This document shows, piece by piece, positions 55,657 through 60,092 of a stretch of 64,000 nt of DNA. Under the pieces are notes generated by a model. That model was not told where the DNA came from, did not search any database, and saw only the letters and a program-made list of their open reading frames with translations. The stretch's first letter is position 1, and each line of letters begins with the position of its first letter. The stretch is taken from assembly GCA_025936825.1 (NCBI GenBank), contig JAICSO010000001.1:496001-560000 (forward strand), given 5' to 3'. The translations under genes were made by a program, and so were the position numbers. Origin of the DNA: Terriglobales bacterium. Lineage in GTDB: Bacteria; Acidobacteriota; Terriglobia; Terriglobales; Acidobacteriaceae.

Positions 55657-55673
55657 AATCAGTACACTGAACG
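55657..55673. promoter_or_regulatory. MarR-type operator copy 1 (upstream of pcaHG)
   Basis: TCAGTACACTGAAC: matches the perfect copy at 57727 (TTCAGTATACTGAA) at 12 of 14 core positions. Lies between the fcs stop codon and the pcaH start, about 60 bases upstream of pcaH. Part of a three-copy set. Confidence 0.7.
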
Positions 55674-55676
55674 TCG

Positions 55677-57551
55677 TCAGGCAGTATCCCTGATTCCATT
55701 AGCGACAAGGACGTGATCGGGTGGAGACTCGAGATACAACTCCTCGACTAGAGCCGCGCGATTGCTGAGAACAACACGCTGGTTGATCGAGCCTTTATCG
55801 GTCAGTTCGCGCGCTTCGAGCGACGGTGGGATTGCAAGCAGGACAGCGCGAACAATACATGTCGAATTGGTGGTATTGGCAGCAGCAAAACTGTCAAATT
55901 TCTGCTGGAATGCGGCACGAACTTGGGGGTGGGCACACACGTCCGCGGGGCTGGCATTTTCGCCCAGATCGCGGCAAAGTTTCACACACGCAGGCAGGGC
56001 GGGAAAGCAGAGTGCAGTGACGTAGTCGCGGTCCGGGGCCGCAAGAACGACATCTTGCAGCAGACCTTCAAAGTGGGCGATCAGCCGCATGCGCAACGCT
56101 CCAACTCTCACCCACGTGCCGCTCGAGAGTTTAAAGTCCTCGTTGAGACGGCCGTCGAACACAAAGCCCTTCTGCGGATTCGCGGGATCTGCTAGCTTGA
56201 TGGCATCGCCCATGCAGTAGAAGCCTTCGTGGTCGAATGCAGTTTGATTCAGGTCCGGGCGACGCCAAAAACCCGGCGTGATCGACGGGCCGCGTACGCG
56301 TGCCTCGGTGCGACCGCCAATCGGAAAGAGTTTCAGTTCTACCCCCGGTGCGGGAAGGCCGATCCAGCCGGAAGAAGATCCTTCGACTCCGGTAGAAATC
56401 GCGAATGGGGCGGTTTCGGTAGCGCCCAAGCCGGTGACTACCAAAATTTCTTCGCCGCAGGTCTCGAACGCGAGGTCCTGCATGTCGTCCCAAACCTTTT
56501 GGCTGAGACCGGCGGCGGCGAAAAACAGCAGGTTCAGGCGGCTGAAGAAATGTTTGCGAAAGTGCGCGTCTGCACGCAAGTGCTCGACCAGCAACTCATA
56601 ACCTCGCGGGACATTGAAGTACGCAGTGGTCGCAATCTCGCGCAAGTTTCGGACGGTTTCACCAAATAGCTCCGGTGTAGGCTTGCCGGCATCGATGTAG
56701 AGCGTTCCCCCATTGTGAAGCGCAATTCCGAAATTATGGCTGCCACCAAAAGTATGGTTCCAGGGCAGCCAATCACAGAGAACCGGGGGTTGTTCGGCAA
56801 GGCATGGCATGACCTGCTCGAGCATCAACTGATTCGAACACAGCATTCGATGAGTGGTAATGACGCCCTTGGGAAGGCCGGTCGAACCCGAGGTGTAGAG
56901 GATTTTCGCGATCGAGTCGGGCCTGACGTCGTGGTGAGCGTTCTCCGCGAGAGGCGAGGCGCCTGCGTTCTCGAGTGCGTCGAGTGAAATGGAATCAATT
57001 CCGGCCGGCGTAGATCCGTGGTGGATCACAACAGTGTCATCCTGCAGTACTGCCTTGAGCGCATCACTAAATTGCGCGCCATCCTGCACGAAAACCATGC
57101 CCGGTTGAAGATTTTCCCAGACATGTTTGAGTGCTACGAACTGTTTGACGCCCAGCGAATACGATGGCGCGATGGGAGCATAAGGAATTCCCGTGTACAT
57201 TGCTGCGAGCGCCAAGAGTCCATGCTCGATGCTGTTGCCGGAAAGGATGATGAGCGGACGGTTCTTCGAGAGGCCACTTCCGAGCAGGCCTGCGGCAAGC
57301 TTCCGAACACGCCGGAACGCGGATGAGTATGTAAGGTGTTGCCAAGAGCCATCTGTTCCGCGTTGCGCCAGGAAGATGCGGTCGGGCGACTGCTTGGCCC
57401 AGCGCTCCAGACGGTCGCTGACGCGGGCAGGATACTCGCGAAGAGCCTCTGTTGAGCGTACGTGTACGACACCGTTGTCCCGGTGTTCGAAAGTGGCCCG
57501 GACAGTGGCTACGTTGACGCGGCGCACCGGCCGCTTGGCGAGTGGTTCCAT
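55677..57551 (-). CDS. fcs: Feruloyl-CoA synthetase-like acyl-CoA ligase
   Basis: A 624-residue AMP-forming ligase of the feruloyl-CoA synthetase subfamily, longer than the usual 500-550 residues. The N-terminus begins VNVATVRATFEHRDNGVVHVRSTEALREYP, as in bacterial Fcs; the AMP motif is LYTSGSTGLPKGVITTH; A5 is TGLGATETAPFA; A8 is VFDGRLNEDFKLSSGTWVRVG. The enzyme converts ferulate (or p-coumarate, caffeate) plus ATP and CoA to the CoA ester. It is transcribed leftward toward pcaHG and is divergent from metF; the operator at 57727 lies in their shared region. The stop codon overlaps the region of the pcaH operator. No enoyl-CoA hydratase/aldolase gene accompanies it here. Confidence 0.88.
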   Translation of the reverse strand: MEPLAKRPVRRVNVATVRATFEHRDNGVVHVRSTEALREYPARVSDRLERWAKQSPDRIFLAQRGTDGSWQHLTYSSAFRRVRKLAAGLLGSGLSKNRPLIILSGNSIEHGLLALAAMYTGIPYAPIAPSYSLGVKQFVALKHVWENLQPGMVFVQDGAQFSDALKAVLQDDTVVIHHGSTPAGIDSISLDALENAGASPLAENAHHDVRPDSIAKILYTSGSTGLPKGVITTHRMLCSNQLMLEQVMPCLAEQPPVLCDWLPWNHTFGGSHNFGIALHNGGTLYIDAGKPTPELFGETVRNLREIATTAYFNVPRGYELLVEHLRADAHFRKHFFSRLNLLFFAAAGLSQKVWDDMQDLAFETCGEEILVVTGLGATETAPFAISTGVEGSSSGWIGLPAPGVELKLFPIGGRTEARVRGPSITPGFWRRPDLNQTAFDHEGFYCMGDAIKLADPANPQKGFVFDGRLNEDFKLSSGTWVRVGALRMRLIAHFEGLLQDVVLAAPDRDYVTALCFPALPACVKLCRDLGENASPADVCAHPQVRAAFQQKFDSFAAANTTNSTCIVRAVLLAIPPSLEARELTDKGSINQRVVLSNRAALVEELYLESPPDHVLVANGIRDTA

Positions 57552-57726
57552 CCTGACAGGAGCCTCCGGTCTCCTGTGGGCGTGGCGGAGTTCAGCCGGC
57601 AGCTAATGTACCGCATACCACCGACAAATGGCCATTCCAACTCTGATTGGACGCCTCCAATCAGACAGGCTAGCGCAATTGCTCTTGACAACCACGATCA
57701 AAGGTGAGAGATGTCTTGAGTCAGAC

Positions 57727-58639: not shown

Positions 58640-60027
58640 GCAGTGCGCCATCCCTTCGCGTAGTTCTCGCGCGCAACCTTCGAATACGGGGCCGGACTCA
58701 CAATCGCGCGGATCTCGGTTTGCCTGTGCCGCTCGACCGTAGGTTTTCGTGTTCCTCCGCCCCACTCACCCCAGATAATGCTGACCTCTTCCCCGATTTG
58801 AACATCCGGATCGACAACTCCCAGCGAGAGCATGGTTCGGTCGTTGTAGCTGTACCCCGTAAACATGGAAAAGCCAACTGTGTTTCCGCGACTCAGAACC
58901 GCGTCGTACGAAGCCGACGCATAGTTGGAGAGCGGCAAGTCGAGGTACTTGCACGGTTCTTCTGGGTCAAACATTGAGGCCCAGACTTTCAAAATATCCT
59001 CCGCTTCCCAGGCAAATGTGACTTTCTTTCGCTGCGGGTGTGTTGCCATTTGTTCCAGAGACGCACGGCCGATGAAGTCGTGATCGAATTTGACGAAAGG
59101 GCCATAACCCAGTGCGTAGGGGCTCAGGTAATAGTCTTCGATATTGCTGGAATCGAAGCTGCCGCCCAGCGAACCCGTAGCTTCGTAGCTGGTGGCAGGG
59201 AGCCATTCACGATATCGCTTCATCTTTTCCCCGGTGTAAACCGCCGGAAGCGGTGAGGGAATCCATCCCGATTCGAGCGTATTCGTGGCGTAAGCGCGGG
59301 CGCCAACCTGCTTCAGACCAAAATCCCCGCCAGCTTCGAGAATGGCCTCGCGTATTTCTTCGCGCTCTTCATACGGTCCCCAGACTTCCAGGCCCGGCGC
59401 GCCGGCCATGCCGTGGCGAAGCGCACGAACTTTGCGTCCAGCAATATTGATGGCATCCATGTTGAAAAACTTGATCTCGGGAAGCGGGCCGCCATGCAAC
59501 CTCTCGAGAATTTGTGGTGCGTTGGGACCCTGAATCTGGTAGCGATAACAACTGCGGACCACTGCCTTGGCTTTCGGGTTGGAAGGAGAGCGGTCATCTT
59601 TTTCGATCTTGACGTCGTAGCCGCCGGTTTCGGCGTGAAACTGAATCCAGTTCGCGGCCGGTGCACGGCCTACGAAAACGAGACGATTCTCCTCGAGGTG
59701 AAAAAGGATGCCGTCACCAATAATGAAGCCGTTGTAGCTGCAAGGCGCAAACTGCTTGGCGCGGTTGACAGGGAATTTTGCGAAGCTGTTGGTGGCAAGA
59801 TGCGAGAACATCTTCAGGGCGTCCGAGCCTTCTACATAGATGTTGGCCATGTGATGGGACTGATCGAATAGGACGGCGGTTTCGCGCCAGGCGCGCTGCT
59901 CATCACGCCAGTTGGAGAACTCGTATGGGACCACGGGATAAACGTAGGCGCCGATCTGCGAGTTGCGCAGCATGTCTACCGGATTGCCGGAACTCTGCAG
60001 CAGTTCTTCCAGATTGTGCGGACTCAT
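58630..60027 (-). CDS. ligM: Tetrahydrofolate-dependent aryl O-demethylase (LigM/DesA-like)
   Basis: A 465-residue protein of the GcvT-like aminomethyltransferase fold. Length and segments such as [35 protein letters not shown] and [17 protein letters not shown] follow the vanillate/3-O-methylgallate (LigM) and syringate (DesA) O-demethylases of Sphingobium. These transfer the methyl ether group of the aromatic ring to THF, giving protocatechuate from vanillate, which PcaHG in this locus would open. GGAG lies before the ATG at 60027 (the frame is open to 60057). Divergent from marR, with an operator between the two. Whether vanillate or syringate is the substrate cannot be seen. Confidence 0.85.
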
Positions 60028-60068
60028 GGTGCTCTCCTGAAGTGATGAGCAAGGCAATGTCCGAAAAA

Positions 60069-60092
60069 CGTCGTTCAGTATACGGAACGTCG
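60069..60092. promoter_or_regulatory. MarR-type operator copy 3 (between ligM and marR)
   Basis: CGTTCAGTATACGGAACG: central GTATAC with GTTC/GAAC arms, one mismatch (A:G) in the dyad. Located about 45 bases upstream of the ligM start and 90 bases upstream of marR, so it could control both. Confidence 0.7.

Follow-up and report, generated by a model that had tools for sequence, protein, structure and literature searches.

We have identified three copies of one palindromic sequence, TTCAGTATACTGAA, in a cluster of genes for aromatic catabolism of a Terriglobales bacterium (Acidobacteriota; assembly GCA_025936825.1), where they lie between the divergent genes ligM and marR, between an fcs-like and a metF-like gene (hereafter fcs and metF), and before pcaHG. 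The cluster is part of a stretch of 64,000 nucleotides (contig JAICSO010000001.1, positions 496,001 to 560,000), which is referred to as the window. This analysis establishes the sites, shows that they are conserved, and shows that they co-occur with the lineage of MarR protein encoded beside them; from these findings we infer binding, repression, operon extent and ligand. Our preferred reading, which we regard as probable, is that marR, ligM, metF/fcs and pcaHG are controlled together by a MarR repressor of VanR-like type that vanillate releases. DesR already provides a known case of a MarR protein that controls ligM-metF in response to vanillate; what is new here is the lineage with its operator, the addition of fcs and pcaHG in this window, and a connection with regulators encoded beside vanAB.

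A first-pass annotation of the window had placed the palindromes at 55657, 57727 and 60069, and all three are present, with true starts at 55658, 57728 and 60074 (offsets of 1, 1 and 5); none is assigned a strand. Operator 1, ATCAGTACACTGAA (55658..55671), has two mismatches to TTCAGTATACTGAA and lies between the fcs stop (55677) and the pcaH start (55597), which are 79 bp apart. Operator 2 is a perfect TTCAGTATACTGAA (57728..57741) in the divergent region between fcs (start 57551) and metF, 11 bp upstream of the first possible metF ATG (57752). Operator 3, TTCAGTATACGGAA (60074..60087), has one mismatch, lies in the divergent region between ligM (start 60027) and marR (ATG 60180), and includes TATACT when read on the ligM strand. 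Six sites with up to three mismatches occur in the window against 0.93 expected, a number reached in 0 of 100 shuffles. The remaining three are at 35850 (two mismatches) and at 17310 and 54029 (three mismatches each, within coding open reading frames (ORFs)). The first of these, TTTAGTAAACTGAA (35850-35863), is found 20 bp upstream of the likely ATG of a TPR gene, with a TonB-receptor-like gene ahead, and corrects the earlier statement that no further copy was found in the intergenic regions scanned. Three sites within 4.43 kb correspond to a Poisson p of ~3e-7 at the density of the 18 sites of the genome, a density that counts the three window sites too. All three palindromes are confirmed, and their occurrence by chance is improbable.

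The 14-mer is conserved in relatives, and this comparison provides our strongest evidence. A MarR search of genome contigs yielded 29 loci, 14 of them acidobacterial (L040-L052 and L068; L048 and L051 derive from one metagenome-assembled genome (MAG)) and 15 betaproteobacterial (L053-L067). The MarR is otherwise rare, with matches at 1e-10 in 5 of 150 family genomes and 7 of 396 phylum genomes, own genome included; these are 29-34% identical except in the own genome and in G071 (75%). Among the acidobacterial loci, the perfect 14-mer occurred in all eight metF upstream regions tested, and all ten ligM upstream regions had a site (one mismatch, in the same variant as in the window, in nine; two mismatches in one). 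In a half-site permutation control for metF and ligM, about 200 permuted palindromes gave 0 matches at the 1-mismatch level. When metF promoters were aligned, the 14-mer was identical in 10 of 11 (window included) and had one change in the eleventh; its surroundings were less conserved, though a TGACAA upstream was also kept. The fcs/marR intergenic region carried a form with two to three mismatches in 10/10 loci with fcs beside marR, which is weaker evidence because the flanks are conserved too.

In 13 genomes of relatives, reached via the acidobacterial loci plus G071, 24 sites with at most one mismatch were found, compared to two for a reversed control. Ten were at metF, 11 at ligM (with a double site in one genome and two ligM copies in one), two at the start of a nuoI-like gene, and one within a coding region (L097); sites lacking an opened locus were assigned to known loci via contig coordinates. 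The two sites at nuoI-like genes (L092, L094) are TTCGGTATACTGAA, close before the gene, and a methionine-synthase-like ORF lies downstream in L094. The partner genes in the window (ligM/marR, metF/fcs) differ from those in most relatives (ligM/fadJ, metF/catechol 2,3-dioxygenase, fcs/marR), and therefore the site tracks ligM and metF. Read on the ligM strand, the operator includes TATACT in 10 of 12 ligM promoters, and in 11 of 12 a -35-like hexamer (up to two mismatches) stands 16-18 bp upstream, taken as the best of four spacings with no control.

The operator was not found at ligM genes of genomes in which the MarR was not found. A LigM search at 1e-100 gave matches in 4/396 phylum and 6/300 family genomes, own genome included. 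Four ligM homologues in G230, G324 and G419 (the last with two copies, one of them 76% identical) have no site within 250 bp, the best having four mismatches. The MarR search found no match in these three genomes, whose inclusion in that search is deduced from genome labels. Six further ligM promoters, all with the site, are those of the window and of what appear to be MAGs already counted, and are not independent. What this search adds comes from the four homologues above and from the ligM paralogues L129 and L130 (59%), which have no site; L127 lacked upstream sequence.

Outside the Acidobacteria, the nearest relatives of the MarR protein are betaproteobacterial MarR proteins (46-53% identity). 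The 15 loci from the MarR search and three plasmid matches make up a set of 18 loci from Massilia, Collimonas, Castellaniella, Comamonadaceae and others. A vanA or vanB homologue was located near the MarR gene in 16 of the 18, the exceptions being L063, at a contig end, and L064, with no vanA or vanB within 4.5 kb. All five VanA proteins scanned have the Pfam VanA_C domain. VanAB releases formaldehyde, LigM makes methyl-folate, and the two enzymes are non-homologous. Upstream of vanA, a site with up to three mismatches was detected in 13 of 15 loci (one mismatch in five, two in one, three in seven), where permuted palindromes gave 0.19 on average and 6 at most. The two misses are L067, where a 1-mismatch site at 9483 overlaps the extrapolated start, and L069, which has none. 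A TTCAGTRTRCTGAA-type operator is thus found at the demethylase promoter in both settings (ligM 10/10, vanA 13/15). The vanAB-linked regulators resemble the window MarR in sequence, in tree group and in the palindrome before vanA. They differ in that the demethylase is the Rieske oxygenase VanAB, compared to the folate-dependent LigM in the window. Paraburkholderia aromaticivorans (L070) has one site on the vanB side and a second 117 bp upstream of a formaldehyde dehydrogenase gene (fdhA), not of metF. More distant MarR relatives adjoin gentisate/3-hydroxybenzoate or mobA-like genes. One beside a mobA-like monooxygenase (L075) has ATCAGTATACTGGT (three mismatches), and GTCAGTGTACTGAA is found with a MarR of 29% identity close to a gentisate-dioxygenase homologue (L033). 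Because of these related palindromes the operator core appears to be older than its association with vanillate, and the ligand cannot be read from the site alone.

Membership of the window protein in the MarR family was borne out by its PF01047 winged-helix domain, which scores over the curated cut-off. In a PDB sequence search its best matches were PcaV (9.4e-17), HosA (1.3e-16) and BpsR (1.6e-16), with CouR at 9.0e-8. Foldseek, run with an AlphaFold model (mean predicted local distance difference test score 85.5; 21 sequences), placed PcaV at ranks 1-3, followed by the uncharacterised regulator 2nnn and BpsR; HosA came 11th and CouR 31st. The ligands of these neighbors are protocatechuate (PcaV), 4-hydroxybenzoate (HosA) and 6-hydroxynicotinate. 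PcaV of Streptomyces coelicolor and HosA of E. coli are thus the closest solved sequences and folds, with small hydroxybenzoate ligands, although they are only ~30-33% identical over the Foldseek alignment and their target genes differ from those here. In a MarR tree built from 48 rows after four partial ones were set aside, the 12 acidobacterial rows form a clade (support 100/99). Together with the vanAB-linked rows and two unassigned betaproteobacterial rows they form a 30-row group (92/91), outside which two fcs-linked rows fall.

A published precedent is DesR of Sphingobium sp. SYK-6, a MarR protein that is released from ligM by vanillate and syringate and whose described regulon is ligM-metF-ligH, desB and desR (PMC6888825). 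Like DesR, a MarR-type repressor of ligM, metF and itself in that description (PMC6888825), the window has a MarR gene and a shared operator over ligM and metF. It differs from the published description of DesR in the operator (GTTTGTGTCACATAC / GTTTGTGTAACATAC compared to TTCAGTATACTGAA), and the regulon as described there is without fcs or pcaHG. The DesR inverted repeat GTTTGTGTNACATAC had six window matches at up to three mismatches (2.29 expected), none of them in 48.6-64 kb.

In the mechanism that we propose, the MarR protein (60180-60695) would occupy TTCAGTATACTGAA in three promoters as a dimer. In the ligM promoter a likely -10 element (TATACT) falls within the site, so that binding would block RNA polymerase by occlusion, and the same site would control marR. 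The 57728 site would control metF and perhaps fcs, and the 55658 site pcaHG and perhaps also the pyrroloquinoline quinone (PQQ) dehydrogenase gene and the metE-like gene that follow. Release of the repressor by vanillate, or by a closely related hydroxybenzoate (for example protocatechuate), would lead to a joint rise of LigM demethylation, methyl-tetrahydrofolate methyl disposal (MetF-like, MetE-like) and PcaHG ring opening. Vanillate is the likely ligand because it is the substrate common to LigM and VanAB, the fold is PcaV/HosA-like, and DesR sets a precedent. The first-pass annotation had also proposed one operator over ligM/marR, metF/fcs and pcaHG, recognized by the adjacent MarR. This part is supported by the recurrence of the site, its absence where the MarR was not found, and the betaproteobacterial co-occurrence, with pcaHG included in the window only.

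That annotation had further placed the MarR among CouR/FerR/FerC-like regulators, with release by feruloyl-CoA, so that ferulate would induce the whole pathway. An fcs-like gene is indeed in the cluster, fcs faces marR across a site in relatives, CouR (Rhodococcus, Rhodopseudomonas) and FerR/FerC are MarR repressors of hydroxycinnamate genes, and MarR proteins with p-hydroxycinnamoyl-CoA ligands exist (PMC4737184). The placement itself was not supported, CouR not being the nearest solved relative (9e-8 compared to 9e-17 for PcaV) and the protein not grouping with fcs-linked rows; that branch is represented by CouR itself and the two fcs-linked rows. By contrast, a MarR near the annotated feruloyl-CoA synthase of Terrarubrum (L077) matches CouR at 5.3e-36 and has no such site nearby (best five mismatches). 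The operator described for CouR also differs (PMC4737184): its repeat, cATTGA-N5-TCAATg, had no match at up to one mismatch at these promoters and a single one inside ligM (1.68 expected). The repeat given for Saro_0803, GCAATA-TATTGC, differs as well (PMC10046596). Massilia L066 has two MarR proteins, one a vanAB-linked relative (52%) and the other, on the fcs side, of 32% identity. Release by feruloyl-CoA is therefore unsupported and, in our estimate, unlikely. Since its relatives are encoded next to vanAB or 3-hydroxybenzoate/gentisate genes, the ligand is more plausibly a small hydroxybenzoate, with vanillate the likeliest candidate. Sensing of protocatechuate, the LigM product, in the manner of PcaV is a minor possibility that draws on PcaV as the top match in sequence and fold and on the site at pcaHG. 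Against it, relatives have their sites at ligM and metF, the betaproteobacterial relatives stand beside vanAB, and pcaB, which is encoded elsewhere in the own genome and scores over its cut-off, has no site at up to three mismatches in 14 kb.

Two further alternatives concern the sites themselves. A conserved operator read by a second, unlinked regulator, with the neighboring MarR incidental, would fit the similar core palindromes beside other MarR branches; we consider it very unlikely, given that site and MarR lineage co-occur in two phyla and that ligM homologues lack the site in genomes where the MarR was not found. An origin of the three sites as chance palindromes or -10 elements is suggested by the resemblance of the TATACT core to a -10 box and by 15 further genomic sites at up to two mismatches. 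This is hardly credible, as the whole 14-mer is kept at metF and ligM of relatives and permuted palindromes are not. Several observations nevertheless weigh against control by a vanillate-responsive MarR repressor as we propose it. The operator core is not vanillate-specific, and another MarR could read it. L064 carries the MarR with no vanA found within 4.5 kb, and L069 has vanAB and the MarR, yet no site before vanA. The pcaHG site has two mismatches and is known from the window genome alone, and the fcs/marR form combines its two to three mismatches with conserved flanks. No site with at most one mismatch was found in G071, G533 or G532; the ligM site of G532 has two mismatches, and G071 and G533 are probably one MAG with marR cut at a contig end. 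Finally, the vanAB-linked rows do not form a single clade, and nesting of the acidobacterial clade among them is supported at only 86/79.

A genome-wide scan for further members, as the first-pass annotation had suggested, was run as a pattern scan, and the extra members it yielded were only weak. The own genome (6.54 Mb) has 18 sites at up to two mismatches, compared to nine for a reversed control pattern. Ten of the 18 are at most 250 bp upstream of a called start, compared to 0/9 controls (Fisher 0.009), and 7/15 when the three window sites are excluded (Fisher 0.022); this comparison is confounded in that the real pattern holds TATACT and the control does not, and ORF calling was crude. 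Candidates outside the window (L016, L021, L023 and L024) were a carboxylesterase (C34:319095, with a 14-mer identical to the ligM site), a GH3 glycosidase (C34:460586), a cupin/benzoylformate decarboxylase (C60:22938, where the site may fall within the first codons of the cupin gene, and an aromatic-acid transporter and pobA lie in the same 14 kb), and a molybdenum aldehyde oxidoreductase (C65:160150). None was kept among the relatives' sites of at most one mismatch, and they were thus excluded from the regulon.

The genes of the cluster were assigned by domain and family scores. The proposed vanillate-responsive repressor gene marR (60180..60695, + strand; 171 aa) scores 35.0 bits for PF01047 (cut-off 24.6). 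The ligM gene (58630..60027, - strand) encodes a tetrahydrofolate-dependent vanillate/3-O-methylgallate O-demethylase (NF047885, 766.8 bits; cut-off 580). The metF-like gene (57752..58639, + strand; a later ATG at 57776 is possible) encodes a divergent member of the methylenetetrahydrofolate reductase family (PF02219, 27.7 bits; cut-off 24) that is far under the NCBIfam MetF cut-off (26.5 compared to 293.7 bits), and its MetF activity is presumed from this family match. The fcs-like gene (55677..57551, - strand) encodes an AMP-forming acyl-CoA synthetase that is under the NF009232 cut-off (734.8 compared to 777 bits) and 51% identical to an annotated feruloyl-CoA synthase, which makes it a probable feruloyl-CoA synthase. 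Protocatechuate 3,4-dioxygenase is encoded by pcaH (beta subunit; 54875..55597, - strand; TIGR02422, 364.2 bits, cut-off 296.4) and pcaG (alpha subunit; 54297..54878, - strand; TIGR02423, 229.5 bits, cut-off 126.25). Behind pcaHG are a gene of the PQQ-dependent alcohol dehydrogenase family (52090..54219, - strand; TIGR03075, 658.7 bits, cut-off 480.05) and, after a 15-bp gap, a metE-like gene with a cobalamin-independent methionine synthase catalytic domain (50965..52074, - strand; PF01717, 77.3 bits; under NCBIfam cut-offs). Judging from their direction and short gaps, these genes may form one operon with pcaHG, in which the metE-like protein would be a possible sink for methyl-tetrahydrofolate.

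A second perfect inverted repeat, TGATTGGA-CGCC-TCCAATCA (57644-57663), lies 93 bp upstream of fcs, and fcs may have a second regulator of its own. Its arms look like CouR-type half-sites with different spacing. It is the sole perfect copy in the own genome, where four places match at up to two mismatches (control 0). A GcvH-like domain inside a longer protein (60734-61405) adjoins marR. A separate cluster at 38808-46453, without operator copies, encodes an amidohydrolase, an aldehyde dehydrogenase, an acyl-CoA synthetase, a DUF5938/saccharopine-dehydrogenase-like protein, a thiolase and a TetR regulator; its amidohydrolase is 34% identical to that of the Terrarubrum feruloyl-CoA synthase locus. 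In relatives, a second weak site of TTAAGTATACTCAA type occurs before the catechol 2,3-dioxygenase gene (up to two mismatches in 6/10 loci), and genes for a kinase like those of the hydroxyphenylethanone (Hpe) and acetovanillone (Acv) systems, a biotin carboxylase and a HAD phosphatase lie beside marR or fcs (L045 9711-16111, L050 615-6907); the Hpe cluster used for comparison is that described in PMC9618137. Searches of the own genome, run with no positive control, gave no match for the kinase subunit or for the relatives' catechol 2,3-dioxygenase, and one for the fadJ fusion gave only partial matches (up to 40%), so the acetovanillone link was not applied to the window.

By title and abstract start, we found in the open-licence PMC literature no described regulator of vanillate breakdown in Acidobacteriota and no paper on the vanAB-linked MarR lineage. 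Our analysis proposes for this soil phylum a regulon for lignin-derived methoxy-aromatics that is specific enough to be tested, and corrects a plausible mis-assignment, the sensing of feruloyl-CoA suggested by the neighboring fcs. We tentatively suggest that one MarR and its operator may have persisted in both Acidobacteriota and Betaproteobacteria as a sensor of vanillate, with the demethylase (VanAB or LigM) and the C1-disposal gene (fdhA or metF) being swapped; the metF side holds for all metF promoters tested, the fdhA side for one locus (L070). If this is true, the control wiring would have outlived the enzymes, with the sensor and operator reused over two unrelated demethylases and the C1-disposal step adjusted, and the palindrome would help to predict vanillate regulons in uncultured MAGs.

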